From the NCBI GenBank assembly GCA_956465555.1, contig OY101116.1, positions 434,001 through 498,000 on the forward strand: a stretch of 64,000 nucleotides of DNA. Direction: 5' to 3'. This document shows positions 42,841 to 51,000 of this stretch, one piece after another. A program made the position numbers and the translations under genes. Position 1 is the stretch's first letter, and each line of letters starts with the position of its first letter. The notes below the pieces were generated by a model that was not told where the DNA came from, ran no database searches, and worked only from the letters and a program-made list of their open reading frames with translations. This DNA is from Nitzschia sp. pyKryTriq1 (taxonomy: Eukaryota; Bacillariophyta; Bacillariophyceae; Bacillariales; Bacillariaceae).

Positions 42841-42971
42841 ATGAAGCTATTCTCTCGCCCGCGCGCTCTACTAGCTCACACCGCCGCCAGCGCGTCGTCC
42901 AACGCAAATGCAATCCCACGCGGAAACCGACGACCCGACACAGACGGCCTCTGGCTGCTCCGCAAGTCCGC

Positions 42972-43006
<35 letters not shown>

Positions 43007-45162
43007 CATCTCACTTTGACGACGACGAGGCCTCGGCATTTCCAAACAAACGCAAGAGTAGTCCCGAACAGAGTCGTGAGAAATTGGAAGCAGTGGAAGC
43101 AAGAAAGAAGGAACTGTTGACTGCATCACCGACGAAAAAGACAAACAACAACAACAACAACAAGATCATGAGCTCTCGCCCCATGTCCGACGAAGAAGCA
43201 GTGGCCGCGGCCGACAAAGAGATGGAAGCCCGGGCCAACCGCGCCAAGGAGCTTTTATCGCAGCGATATGTGGGTCTCAAACGGCAACAGGTATGTTCTA
43301 GAGGTCGTTACTCGCTCGTCCAGCACAGTACAATGACTGGAATACTCACGGTGTCCTTCACTTCTCCATGTTCCTGTTTTTGTTTGACATTGCGACATTA
43401 AACGACTCAACGCTCTGCCAAAATCATCATATCATCAACACCTATCCCCACCTTACTGATGATGTAATTCACAGGAGGACCGCAAGAATCGCAAGATGCA
43501 ACTCGAACGACAAATGGTAGGCATGGCAGAAGAGAAGAAGCAGGATTTGCGCCGCACCTTGGAGCATGAAGAAATGATTGCCCAGAAGGATTCGCGCAAG
43601 AAGATTTCCACTGCCGACTTTGAATCTCTGGCTGTCATTGGAAGGGGAGCCTTTGGAGAAGTCCGACTGGTCCGTCATAAGGCGAAGGGAGACGGGAAAA
43701 TCGAAATCTTTGCCCTCAAGAGTATGAAGAAGGAAATGATGGTCATGAAGAATCAAGTCGGTCATGTCCGCGCCGAACGAGAGGCCCTCGCCAAGGCGGA
43801 CTCGAATAATAAGTGGCTTACGTCCCTGTACTACTCCTTTGTCGATGATACCCACCTCTATATGGTCATGGAGTATTTGCCGGGTGGAGACTTGATGAGC
43901 TTGTTGATCAAGGAAGATACTTTCTCAGAATCGGTCACCAAGTATTTCATGGCTCAAGCCGCGCACGCCATCAGCAGTGTGCACGCTTTGGGGTACATTC
44001 ATCGTGATATCAAACCGGATAACATGCTTTTGGATGCCAAGGGTCATTTGAAATTGACTGACTTGGGACTTTGCAAAAAGGTCGGAGAAGTTAGCCCCAT
44101 GGATGACCCTGAATACGTCCTGAAGATGATGCGAGAGCAGGGATTGATCACGGAAGAATCGTCGGGAATGGACTCTGAGGGCGACAACCCGAACAGCGCT
44201 GGCGGGGCAGGCAAGCATCGTGACTCGGGGGATGCCATGGCTATGTCGATTGATGATAGTATCCCCACTGCCCCTGCTAATCAGCCGCGCCCTCAAATGC
44301 CGACTGGCAAGGCTCGACGAGAGGTAAGAGGAAGTTACTATCGTGTCATTATTTATCATGTATCTATTGCATGTGTCTCAAAATCGTTTTCATTCCCTTC
44401 TTCTTTTTGTAGATGGCATATTCGACTGTTGGTACTCCCGACTACATCGCACCGGAGGTATTGGCTGCTCAAAATGGCGCTTCGGGCTACTCTTACACGA
44501 CGGCCGTGGACTGGTGGTCCTTGGGTGTCATTATGTTTGAATGTTTGGTCGGTTATACCCCTTTCTATGCGGAAGATCCCGTCACGACTTGTCGCAAGAT
44601 TCTGCGCTGGCGCCAGTGCTTGGAGTTGCCAGCGGATACCAAGGCCAACTTGTCTCCCGAATGTATTGACTTTTTGAGTTGTTTGTTGGCCGGCCCCGAA
44701 TCTAGAATTGGTTCGTCGAAGAATGGAACCGAGTTTGAGAACGGATTCAAACAGGTGGTGCAACACCCTTGGTTCAAGGGTTTTGATTGGGAAGGCCTGC
44801 CAACCAAGGAAGGTCCCTTGCTGCCTAGTGGAGCCCGAGAGTTCCCAGAATTGTTCGAATATCTCAAGTGAGTGGTTACTTTTCGGATGGACCTCGACGC
44901 GTTGCAGGTATGATGGTTCGTGCTAACTCTTTTTTCTTGATGTTGCTGCTCCTTGCCAAATAGAACGTGTCCCAAGACGGACCCTCGATTCCATCAACTG
45001 GTGACCCGAGTCACTCAAAACTTTGACACTTTTGAGGATTATGGAACCAACTTGGATCGACAAGGCAAGACTCGTGTAGTTCGTAATCAGTTGGATCAGT
45101 TCTATGATTACAACTACCGACGAGTCCGAAAGCCAAAGCTTCCCGTTTCCATTGACGAATAG
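42841..45162 (+). CDS. NDR/LATS-family AGC protein kinase
   Basis: Four exons (42841-43290, 43475-44323, 44413-44867, 44964-45162) give 650 residues. The N-terminus has Asn runs encoded by AAC repeats and a helical MOB-binding-like region ending [16 protein letters not shown]. The kinase has [22 protein letters not shown] (catalytic Lys), [14 protein letters not shown] and DLGLCKK (Leu instead of Phe in DFG). An activation-segment insert of about 85 residues then leads to [31 protein letters not shown] and the AGC C-tail. The final FYDYNYRR aligns with the NDR hydrophobic motif F-x-x-Y-T-Y-K-R, but the phospho-acceptor Thr is Asn. NDR kinases work with MOB proteins in cell shape and division. 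Confidence 0.9.
42973..43006. repeat. (AAC)n microsatellite coding for poly-Asn
   Basis: Eleven consecutive Asn codons in exon 1 of the NDR-type kinase. A shorter run lies at 43143-43161. Confidence 0.85.
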
Positions 45163-45351: not shown

Positions 45352-47397
45352 CTAGTAAAGACTGTTGGAATTATCGTAGGTCGCGATGATTCCTGTCTCG
45401 GCAATAAGCTCTGCTGCCCTGGCATGGTCACCCTTCCCAAAGCCGTAGGAGAATCCATACACTTTGGCTATATTTGATGTGGGGCTGTAGTCGATGCGAC
45501 CTCCTCCAGTGACCGTCACCTTTTCGTATCCAGCGGTACGGATCCATTCCACTAGGTCCTCCGCCACATTCGCATGGTAGAGTCCTCCGCATTCCTTGGG
45601 CGAGGCACTTTTGACAAACGACAGCACGTCGCCAGCTTGCGTTTCGACCTTTACCAGAACGTACTTGTTCCGTCCCGGTGATAATTGAACAACTGGAGGA
45701 AGCAGCTCTGGTTTCTCCATTTCAATTTTAGAGTTGTTGGGAGTTGATGAGCTCAGGCTTTGTACTAGCTCCATATCTATGGACGAAGTGACGCTGCCGT
45801 CTGCACCTTCTTGTTCCAGAATGGGTGACCACCAGGCTTTGTCTAGAGAAATCTCGACCCACCGCTTTGACGGAATGCCCAAAGTTACATTCTTCCGTCG
45901 CCTCTGTTTCCATACTTCCACATAGTCGGCATCCCAAAAGCCAACGTGCGTACTTTGAAGCGCCAAGATCTGAGGATCATTATTAGTCGAGCCTGCCGTA
46001 GTATCAACGGGAATGGCGCCTCCGTACTGTTCGTCCCCCACGAGGGGAAATCCAAGCCGCGAAAGTTGCCCCCGTATTTGATGACTCCTACCGGTCTCCA
46101 ACTGAATGGAAACCTCACAGACAGCCTTTGTCGATTGAGGCATTTGAGCAGATGTCCAAAGCCGGCTGGATAGTGGATGGTGCTCGTTTGGAATTGGATA
46201 GATTCTGGATATTCCTGTAATTTTCAATCGGCATTCCAACCATTCTTTTACTGTAGAGTTCCCGGGGGCGTCCTCTTCTGTTTTGGATAGAATTGGCGGC
46301 TCGGGTTCAAATCGCAACGGCGCTCGATCAGAAGGCTCAAGATAATGTCGGATAGTAGTGTTTTGAAGACTCGATAGTCGCTGCCATGCTTTGATGACCG
46401 ATTCGTCTCCCTCGGAATGTGGTTGCAAACACACCAAGCACTTGTATCGCTTGGTAATGTTACTTTCTTCGTGCTTGAGCTGGGTTTTCCGACGAAGCAA
46501 TTCGGCAAAGTAGGCTGCAAATCTGGACTTCCGCGCCACTACCAATAGCCCGGAAGTGTTCACGTCGATCCGCTGCGTCGTTGCCACATAGTCAGCGTTG
46601 GGATTACCGGATGTTAGTTGATGGACGACATTTTCCACGGCGTTGTCAACAGTGGCATGGACGGGAATGAGTGGCGGCTTGTTGATGATCCAAAAATCGA
46701 GGGTAGAGTGGATGATAGTATACTGTGGTTCTGATATCGAGTCTCCGCTGGACGAATCATCCATACTTGTAGGATCCTTCCAGTCAAAATCATACACTTG
46801 AGTGAAACGTCTCGGCGTGTGGTGTATTCTCATGTAATCCCCTTCTTCTAGTATCAACGTCGAATTTTCCTGTGTGAGGCGCATCGGCTTAAACTTGGAA
46901 TTGGGTATTTCCAGCTCGTTGTGTTCGTACTGGTCCCTGGGCAAATACCAAATGGAACCTAACCGAAGTAGTTGTTGTGGCGTCAATAGTTGTCCTAATT
47001 CTCCAGGCAAGTGAGAACAATCTCCACTAGAAATCCTCTCCCCCATGGATTCTCGTATCGCATTTAGAACCGTGATGGGTGCATCCTTCTCTCCCACCTT
47101 GACGTGCATGGCATATTCCGAAAAAGGTGTCATCGCTCCATTCCATTTCCTGTCGCCATCGCCGTCAGCATTCGTTTGGAAGAGTCGTCGTCGTGGCCGT
47201 CGTCGTCGTCGTTGTTGGGTGGAGTGAGGACAACCAGAAGACGAGCCGAAGGGAAATAATGTCGAGCATCTCGCCCTCGACGACAGGCTTGGGACACGGA
47301 CAGTCCACGCGGAGCAAAACGCGGACATTACCAGCACTGCCGAAGTGGCTATCCGTGAGAACAAGAATCTCGTCTTTGTCGAAGATCTGCTTGCCAT
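45352..47397 (-). CDS. RluA-type pseudouridine synthase fused to a PHPT1/Janus-like phosphohistidine phosphatase domain
   Basis: From the first ATG (47397) the single uninterrupted ORF has 681 residues. The N-terminus has a hydrophobic signal (SAVLVMSAFCSA) followed by WTVRVPSLSSRARC, suiting plastid (or mitochondrial) import. An S4-like or adaptor region contains LEEGDYMRIHHTPRRF. The RluA core has FWIINKPPLIPVHATVDNAVE, QRIDVNTSGLLVVARK (catalytic Asp about 278), ITKRYKCLVCL and LETGRSHQIRGQLSRLGFPLVGDEQYGG. From about residue 578 comes a PHPT1-like domain: NKYVLVKVETQAG, YHANVAEDLV (candidate catalytic His about 608), VTGGGRIDY and AKVYGFSYGFGKGDH. These parallel human PHPT1 KYVLIRV, YHADIYD, GGGRI and VYGYSMAYG. 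Both modules retain active-site residues. I know of no described RluA-PHPT1 fusion. Confidence 0.82.
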   Translation of the reverse strand: MASRSSTKTRFLFSRIATSAVLVMSAFCSAWTVRVPSLSSRARCSTLFPFGSSSGCPHSTQQRRRRRPRRRLFQTNADGDGDRKWNGAMTPFSEYAMHVKVGEKDAPITVLNAIRESMGERISSGDCSHLPGELGQLLTPQQLLRLGSIWYLPRDQYEHNELEIPNSKFKPMRLTQENSTLILEEGDYMRIHHTPRRFTQVYDFDWKDPTSMDDSSSGDSISEPQYTIIHSTLDFWIINKPPLIPVHATVDNAVENVVHQLTSGNPNADYVATTQRIDVNTSGLLVVARKSRFAAYFAELLRRKTQLKHEESNITKRYKCLVCLQPHSEGDESVIKAWQRLSSLQNTTIRHYLEPSDRAPLRFEPEPPILSKTEEDAPGNSTVKEWLECRLKITGISRIYPIPNEHHPLSSRLWTSAQMPQSTKAVCEVSIQLETGRSHQIRGQLSRLGFPLVGDEQYGGAIPVDTTAGSTNNDPQILALQSTHVGFWDADYVEVWKQRRRKNVTLGIPSKRWVEISLDKAWWSPILEQEGADGSVTSSIDMELVQSLSSSTPNNSKIEMEKPELLPPVVQLSPGRNKYVLVKVETQAGDVLSFVKSASPKECGGLYHANVAEDLVEWIRTAGYEKVTVTGGGRIDYSPTSNIAKVYGFSYGFGKGDHARAAELIAETGIIATYDNSNSLY

Positions 47398-48037
47398 CAC
47401 CGCTCGGTGTCGTCGTAAAGAGCTTCTGTTAACCACCAATCCATTACCAGCTTGATACGACGGATTGAGTACTCGTATGATGCACTTTATAGTTTCTCAT
47501 GGTAGCATGGGAAGAAAAGAACTGCTGGTTTATTCGCAGATTTTACACTTCTTTTTAGTTCACGTTGTCATCGTCTATTTTCATCGGTAAAACCCGCATC
47601 AACCATCAACTATCAATAAACGGCGCGTCCCGTCTGTCGTCGTACGTACCCATACATTGTTACACGTGTAAGCATAGAAGCATTGAAAACTACGTCTGTA
47701 TGTCAGCCGTCCTTTTTTGGCGGGCTAAAGGGTCATTGATGACTCGTCCTCGCAGCTTTCTACGGCGGGTCGGTACACGTACCGTACCGGTATTACAGTA
47801 CCACAGTCAGTCGAAGTGGTTTTCAGCAGTTTTCAGGAAGGTTTTCTCGCGTCCCGCAACCCCGCACAAAGCCGATGCATAAGAAGATCTCATCATCGCC
47901 ATCACCAGATCACCATCAGCATCACAGGTCACATCCAACTTCCGAGTTCCATCAGAATCTTATTACTCTCTCCTTCCTGACCACAAGAAGAGATAACACA
48001 AATCTCCGAGACGTTATAGTCATAAACATCAATCACC
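47398..48037. other. Spacer between divergent RluA-PHPT and MCTP-like genes
   Basis: Contains CGTACCGTACCGGTATTACAGTACC at about 47778-47802. Two unsupported ORFs (47565-47882; 47875-48120 overlapping the next start) look like chance. Confidence 0.4.
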
Positions 48038-51000
48038 ATGGGGTTCTTTGGAGGCAGGAAAAAGAACAAAGACGGAGAGGAGTCGTCTGGCAAAACGAAG
48101 AAGAAAAAGTCCCCGATTGACGATGGATATCCCGCGGAAGGGAAAAAGAAGAAAATCAAAAGGCTGAAACTTCGTCTCAAGAAGAAGAAGAAAAAGAAGC
48201 ATAAAGATGAAGTCTATGGCGGCGACGTTTATGAAAGTAAACCTAGGGGCAGACGCGGTGATCAGGGACGAGAAAAGTACTACGAGGAAGAGGAATTCGA
48301 GGGCGACGGTGGTGGATTCCAGCTAGATAATGTCCACCCTGGTGGCCTCAAGCTCAACAATCGAGATTCAACTCGTGATGTAGGGTCAGTAGATGACGGC
48401 AAAAAGATCCGAATCAAGCCCCATCATGCATTCCCCACCCCGGTCTACATGACTGAAAATGAGCTCTACCAGAACATGATGCAGCCGTCGGACGAGTTTG
48501 AATTCTTGACCTCCTACTTGAATCCCTCTACCAAGGCAACGCGACGTGTAAAGGTACCAGACATGGTTCGCAGACACTTTGGGTCGCCGAAGGAAGATGG
48601 CCGGATCGGTTCGCTTCGAGTGGAGGTTCTGGGATGTGTTGGCCTTGACCGTGCCAAACCAGATGTCTCAGTCTACCTGGTGGTCGGAGACTGTGCGTTT
48701 GCCACGGATATCATCCAGGGAGCTCGAAGTCCCATGCTTCCATCCAGTGCCAAGCGGGCGGCAGTCTTCCCCCTTCACCACGCTTATGCTCGCTTATTTG
48801 TTGGTGTTTTTGATGTGAAGGAGCGAAAGAAGAGTGAAGCCGATCATTTCTCCGGCCGTGTTGCTATTGATATCCCTCCCCTTCGCCCCGATACCGAGTA
48901 CGATGTTACCTTCCCCATTCGGGCCTCTACATTCATCTATGATCGAAGACCTCGAGGTGTAGTTCGACTTCGCTTTTCTTTGCATTGGTTCAGCGAGCGT
49001 GCTGTCGTTATGTCGTATTTGAAACGCCCTCGTAACCCTTTGGCATTCTCAAGACAAGCCAAGAAACAACCGACGATCCCGTGTGGAGATCCAAAGACCT
49101 TCCGCAATGTTGCTGTGACGGTGCACGGTCAAGACTTTCCTGGAAAGTATACTCGTGGTGCATTTCGTGCGACGATGCGTGAATTCAATCTTTACCAGCA
49201 GAACGTCCGCTTCTTGACCAAGGTCACCATTATTGACTGCATTCTGTGGGAGAATCCTCTCATGAGTCTATATCTCTTTTCGACCAACATGTATTGTGTC
49301 GTGCAAAACTCGGTTCGTCTAGTGCCTCCATTCTTCATTGGATGGTTGATTTACTTATTGTATGAAAACTATCGGCAGAACAATGTTGCGGTTGCAGGTC
49401 ATTTGGGGTATCGTCCACTAAGTATCATGGAAATCTTCAATGGACTCATTCGAGACGGAAAAGGTGGAAAACACCACTTCAAACCTATCATCGTCAAGAA
49501 AAGACCCCGAAAGCAAGTACTGGGAGAGGATGGCAAGATGACCGATATCGAGATGGCCAACCATAGGGAATTTCCATTCTCGGAGCGGTTCACTTATCAT
49601 AAGTTTGCCGCATCCGATGCTATTGCCGCAGGTCCTGCAAAGACAGGAAAGAAGGGAAAGAAGGCTGGTGCAGCAGGTAGGTTTTTGTAGGGAAAATTTC
49701 CAACGACTGTTGTTTGAGTGTCCACTTCTAACTCAAAACGAATTTTCTTCCGTTCATGTAGCCGCCAAAATGGACGACCAAGGAGCACGACGTCTATCTA
49801 TCTATACATCTCCCGTGGAAGAACGTCCTGATAACGAGAGCGAAGAAGAGTCTTCTTCAGACGAGGAGGATAGTGAACACGAACGAGACGAGGAGGGTAT
49901 GATGGAACAGGGTGACGATGACGGATATGGGGATATGGCGGATAGTGACGAAGAAGGGGATGAAGAGGATGGTGATGCCCCTACCGGTGGCAAAGGACGC
50001 ATGTTTCAATCGGGGAAGGCCAGCACGACGCGTCGAATCCGCGTCGGCCCCGAACAGAATGCTGATAAATCTGGGCGAAAGCAGCCTCCTCAGGTGCATT
50101 TGTCTCGCGTCGAACATATGCTTCACAGAGCCAGTAAGAACATATCTGTCGAGCACGTTCATTTCCCTCCGCCTCACCTCCAGATGAATTTGGGCAAAGA
50201 TTACAATGCCAAAGGACCTGCATCTGATGTTATCACAGCGAAGGAGAAGCAAAACTTCGACGAATTCGATAGATTGCTGGGATTCCGCACCAAGAATCCG
50301 AATCCGATTCTGAGAATTACGTCTTCTTTTTTGGGTCCACTCATGCGTATCATTCGCATCGTGGTGTATGCGACACGAATTGGTTTCAATGTGACGGCAT
50401 GGACCGATCCTTATTTGACTTTTTGGGTGTTCTCATTTCTTGCGACGTTGGCATTCATTCTCTTCATCTTCCCATGGAGAACATTCTTCCTCCTTTCAAC
50501 TGTTATTCTTCTCGGACCACAGGTAAGTCGTGGAAAGCTGCAGTATTTTATACAGCTTTAAATGGATCTAATTTCGATTGCTTGCTTTTAGAATATTGCT
50601 GTCCGCAAGTATCTTGAGAGGAGAGCTCGAGAGAAGGAGGTCGAGGATCGTGAGAAGGCAGATCGCGAAAAAGAAGAGAACAAGAAGTTGGGCGTTGACC
50701 CTGCAGCCCAAGCAATGGCTGCTGCCAAGGCTAAAATCGCTGCTGAGGAAGCCTCGGTTGCCAAGTCAAAGAAAAAGAAAAAAGGTGGACTGTTTGGTAG
50801 CCGTAAGAAAGACGACGATGACGATGACGAGGAAAAGGAGATCAATGAAGCAGATTTATATAGATCACCTCGGCCGGCATTTTACGCTCATACCAGGCCT
50901 ACTCGGCGCACCCAAGTCCCTCGGGATGTGGCCGTTCCCTATTTCAGATTTCGCAAGGAACGTTTTTACGATTGGCCACCTGATCCAACTGTGTCTCGAG

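Follow-up and report, generated by a model that had tools for sequence, protein, structure and literature searches.

An RluA-type pseudouridine synthase and a PHPT1-like domain in one open frame of a Nitzschia genome

A 64,000-nucleotide window of the diatom Nitzschia sp. pyKryTriq1 (assembly GCA_956465555.1, contig OY101116.1, positions 434,001 to 498,000) carries on its minus strand a single open frame that joins an RluA-type pseudouridine synthase core to a Janus/Ocnus domain resembling the phosphohistidine phosphatase PHPT1. An earlier note on the sequence of this window had proposed the pairing, and our analysis bears it out: the frame (45352-47397) translates to 681 residues plus a stop with no internal stops, both domains exceed their curated Pfam cut-offs within that one protein, catalytic residues are kept, and a PHPT1 fold is predicted for the C-terminal domain. 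The motifs quoted in that note are all present (QRIDVNTSG at residues 275-283, KYVLVKV from 578, YHANV from 607, GGGRI from 631 and VYGFSYG from 646). The genome (40.65 Mb) contains the full-length frame at a single place, on contig C2. As the best explanation of the whole we propose, with moderate confidence, a plastid-targeted fusion of an active synthase with an active PHPT1-like phosphatase. Its parts, in window coordinates, are as follows.

45352..47397, minus strand: single open frame, 681-residue fusion protein (translation; single full-length place in the genome)
47158..47397, minus strand: residues 1-80, predicted bipartite plastid presequence (hydropathy, composition and the rule for the +1 residue)
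46699..47157, minus strand: residues 81-233, N-terminal module that contains LGSIWYL and PRRF (without a Pfam match; residues 85-233 scanned)
46060..46698, minus strand: residues 234-446, PseudoU_synth_2 (RluA-type) core with Asp278 and GRSHQIR (Pfam)
45808..46059, minus strand: residues 447-530, C-terminal remainder of the synthase fold, which ends close to KAWWSP (paralog alignment)
45697..45807, minus strand: residues 531-567, linker with many Ser and acidic residues (translation; coding statistics)
45355..45696, minus strand: residues 568-681, Janus/Ocnus (PHPT1-like) domain with Lys578, His608, Arg634, Ser650 and His658 (Pfam, comparison with solved PHPT1, predicted fold)

The synthase core matches PF00849 (PseudoU_synth_2) over residues 234-446 with 63.1 bits against a cut-off of 26.8. 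QRIDVNTSG fits R-[LI]-D-x-x-T-S-G, which we take to be the catalytic-Asp motif of the family, with Asp278 as the candidate residue, and the GRSHQIR motif is retained at 436. Among solved structures the synthase half matches RluD and RluC best by sequence, and RluA, RluD and RluC best by predicted fold. Judged by eye from two paralogs in the same genome (L023 and L014), the synthase fold extends to about residue 530, where the paralog ends also carry a WW pair (PWWGS and WWGEV, respectively), so the synthase does not appear to have been shortened by the fusion. The stretch upstream of the core (residues 85-233) had no Pfam match, and a similar LGAVW...PRRF region can be seen by eye in L023. The genome holds 25 PF00849 matches, and a Pfam scan of the fused core plus 17 others, which left out L007 (near-identical to L006), L013 and five rows without a locus, found no other fusion, giving just PF00849 (18/18) and S4 (3/18). 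Elsewhere, on contig C4, a 626-residue synthase frame (L012:1093-2970; C4:469867) has a Cys/His-rich stretch N-terminal to its PF00849 domain, and Pfam gave no match for that stretch.

For the C-terminal half, the Ocnus family (PF05005) matches residues 568-667 with 58.8 bits against a cut-off of 23 in the protein search, and the structure prediction agrees with the sequence match to solved PHPT1 in giving a PHPT1-type fold. Five of the six named PHPT1 active-site residues are kept: the side chains of human Lys21, His53, Arg78 and Ser94 as Lys578, His608, Arg634 and Ser650, plus the Ala54 position. His608 lies in YHANV, one of the motifs quoted in the earlier note. That note had named the lack of a significant Ocnus hit as a result that would refute the pairing, and this did not occur.

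A six-frame search of the genome, scoring the best candidates, found two Ocnus matches: the fused domain and a free-standing protein of 151 residues on contig C7 (C7:1140264-1140581). Judged by its sequence (E = 1.7e-16 against human PHPT1), the C7 protein is of the ordinary PHPT1 type. The two copies are 36-39% identical over the domain, and their Smith-Waterman score of 166 (mean 28 and maximum 52 in 1000 shuffles) puts the similarity far beyond chance.

Whether one gene or two underlies the frame was addressed with codon statistics trained on 20 other open frames from the same genome (8704 codons; 2 silicon-transporter frames and 18 synthase frames, the latter including two near copies), the fused frame being scored segment by segment against the other five frames and 1000 shuffles. 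Penalising stops in the shuffles and other frames inflates the contrast, and a repeat with stops ignored gave the same result. In that repeat no shuffle in 1000 scored as well as the synthase core (234-470), the junction (471-566) or the Ocnus part (567-681), 6 did for the narrower junction segment 520-566, and in all four the fused frame beat the other five; with stops penalised the corresponding counts were 0, 1 and 1, and 3 for the narrower segment. Residues 81-233 scored only weakly (10/1000, stops ignored), and the first 80 codons were not marked as coding (441/1000 shuffles as good with stops penalised, 409/1000 with stops ignored), so the exact start is placed by the ATG alone. This first ATG lies at 47397, with an in-frame TTG upstream at 47439. 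An unusual presequence may explain the non-coding-like score.

These results bear on the possibility that an intron, an alternative transcript or an assembly error conceals a boundary between a synthase gene and a phosphatase gene. The single-frame reading comes from genomic sequence, Met560 (MEKPELLPP...) could start a free-standing domain, codons 440-590 hold 62 loose GT..AG candidate pairs, and the frame's single GTAAG/GTGAG sequence (GTGAGG at codon 427) lies inside the synthase core. However, there is no stop between the domains, and the chance of 211 codons staying open is 2.7e-5. Splicing from codon 427 would probably delete the GRSHQIR motif at 436, and codons 428-681 contain no GTAAG or GTGAG donor, whereas the neighbouring kinase gene has GTGAGT at 44868, at what appears by eye to be an exon end. 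Any unspliced product that starts with the synthase must include the phosphatase domain. Transcripts showing two separate genes were the other refuting result named in the earlier note; the sequence itself points away from that, and we regard a misread pair of genes as very unlikely.

Several observations nonetheless weigh against a single protein with two active halves. The evidence is genomic DNA of one species, and synonymous-codon bias taken alone is slightly negative or near zero in the junction (-0.026), so that the coding signal there is one of amino-acid usage. The synthase falls far under the NCBIfam cut-off for its best model, the RluA subfamily TIGR00005 (97.3 bits against 192.7), has QRID where many synthases of the same genome have HRLD (His to Gln), and is poorly modelled outside its core (mean predicted local distance difference test, pLDDT, 49.5); it is a divergent RluA-type member rather than a standard RluA/C/D ortholog. 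The C-terminal model is moderately confident (mean pLDDT 66.4), and the fused domain is the weaker of the two Ocnus matches in the genome search (63.1 bits, against 90.2 for the C7 protein). Human Ala96 is replaced by Gly652, and within the substrate-site set Glu51/Tyr52/Tyr93/Met95, a human feature rather than a family requirement, just Tyr52 is retained (as Tyr607), the others being Leu606, Phe649 and Tyr651; the C7 copy likewise has Tyr at the Met95 position. Four extra residues, relative to the C7 copy, stand right before the active-site YH. Together, the changed residues and the insertion may mean altered specificity or inactivity.

The changes at Glu51, Tyr93, Met95 and Ala96 and the insertion, along with a full-strength free-standing PHPT1 in the genome, speak for a reading in which the fusion is real and its PHPT1-like half is a retired phosphatase, now a module for binding or docking (to RNA, the ribosome or a partner protein), with the synthase the sole enzyme. 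A pure scaffold would have no need of the residues kept at the Lys21, His53, Ala54, Arg78 and Ser94 positions, however, and the PHPT1 literature describes Ala54 and Ala96 as working through the backbone NH, which makes Gly652 harmless in principle. We consider such a retired domain unlikely, if far from implausible; in the two-enzyme explanation that we prefer, the C-terminal half would be a working phosphohistidine or phospholysine phosphatase.

The N-terminus has an anatomy that fits plastid import: residues ~16-30 are hydrophobic and are followed by CSA^WTVRVP, with a candidate cleavage site before Trp31, and by a Ser/Thr- and Arg-rich stretch of 50 residues in which Lys or Arg stands 11 times, Ser or Thr 12 times and an acidic residue twice. 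For its high-confidence class, ASAFind checks whether the +1 position holds one of the residues F, Y, W and L (PMC12136025). The earlier note had guessed at an organelle, and the presequence narrows this to a predicted plastid location.

In the scheme that we infer, which covers targeting, both activities, their substrates and any coupling, a nuclear diatom gene would encode a two-domain protein sent to the plastid. By analogy with its family, the RluA half would use Asp278 to make pseudouridine from uridine in the rRNA or tRNA of the plastid, and would place the protein on plastid ribosomes. The PHPT1-like half would hydrolyse an N-linked phosphate (phosphohistidine or phospholysine), the conserved residues suggesting that His608 acts as the general base and that the phosphate is held by Lys578, Arg634 and Ser650. 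The fusion would thereby carry the genome's second PHPT1-type phosphatase into the organelle, where its likeliest use would be the plastid's own phosphohistidine chemistry. A plastid histidine kinase, for example the chloroplast sensor kinase, is a putative substrate. Diatom chloroplast sensor kinases retain the phospho-accepting histidine (PMC2677595), and the genome has 29 HisKA matches, 27 of them over the cut-off.

The two activities could also be unrelated, the join simply allowing one presequence to bring both into the plastid. This is a version of our preferred explanation rather than an exclusive rival; the linker, whose ~37 residues include many that are Ser or acidic, and the single presequence agree with it, there is no direct counter-evidence, and we regard it as a real though tentative possibility. 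A more ambitious idea is that RNA modification and phosphohistidine signalling are coupled within one plastid protein, whose phosphatase half would read or reset a His-phosphorylated plastid regulator (such as a diatom sensor kinase that still has its histidine) and whose synthase half would relay that state to the ribosome or to tRNA maturation, or the reverse. This we hold to be improbable.

Some further features of the window and genome were seen along the way. In the window, runs of Asn lie in a frame (42841-43401, plus strand) upstream of the protein kinase gene, whose kinase matches span 43496-44871 and which seems to go on, with introns, to 45162; the neighbouring opposite-strand frames 48038-49690 and 49605-50561 (both plus strand) had no Pfam match at E 0.001. 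In the genome, eight silicic acid transporter (PF03842) matches, all over the cut-off, lie on C1, C11, C13 and C17, with four grouped in a 42-kb stretch of C1 (275839-317295); such a set marks the genome as very probably that of a diatom. The synthase pair L006 (C3:2863863-2864468) and L007 (C1:4018134-4018736) is identical at 487 of 489 residues, a HisKA pair (C3:2777758 and C1:3926513) has equal open frames of 572 residues, and synthase and HisKA frames are 86 kb apart on C3 and 92 kb apart on C1. A large block is possibly duplicated between C1 and C3.

In the open-access literature, we found no paper pairing a pseudouridine synthase with a phosphohistidine phosphatase in diatoms, none on Ocnus together with a pseudouridine synthase, and none on a phosphohistidine phosphatase in diatoms. 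Two PHPT1 studies deal with animal proteins acting on animal targets (PMC4817053, PMC11277029). Ocnus was found in none of 14 control genomes. Searched with both Ocnus domains, prokaryotic genome contigs gave 40 pattern matches and viral contigs 11, none confirmed; on viral contigs the fused domain by itself gave 3, none confirmed, and the query P0001 gave none. With the synthase core, 1 of 15 pattern matches on prokaryotic genome contigs was confirmed (L029, 23% identity). These contig scans mean only that they turned up no close relative at their sensitivity. Within a comparison whose one eukaryotic genome is the window's own, we take the protein to combine two known families in a new architecture. 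A PHPT1-type domain joined to a pseudouridine synthase, in a protein that seems bound for the plastid, would be a new combination of domains. If true, it would bring the turnover of N-linked phosphate into an organelle in which histidine-kinase signalling persists.

With E. coli RluA, RluC and RluD (PF00849) the fusion shares the core fold, the Asp-containing motif and the GR.HQIR motif, but it differs from that family in having QRID rather than HRLD, a long N-terminal region without a Pfam match, a plastid-type presequence, an extra C-terminal domain and a score of 97.3 of the 192.7 bits set for the NCBIfam subfamily. With PHPT1/Janus-Ocnus (PF05005) it shares the fold and all but one of the six named active-site residues; solved human PHPT1 chains stand alone (125-144 residues), whereas the fused copy sits in a larger protein, has changed pocket neighbours and is predicted to be in the plastid. 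The free-standing C7 protein has no partner domain and is closer to human PHPT1 than the fused domain is. A parallel in organisation is offered by fungal Rib2/Pus8-type proteins, eukaryotic fusions in which an RluA synthase is likewise joined to another enzyme, there a deaminase rather than the PHPT1-like domain found here.
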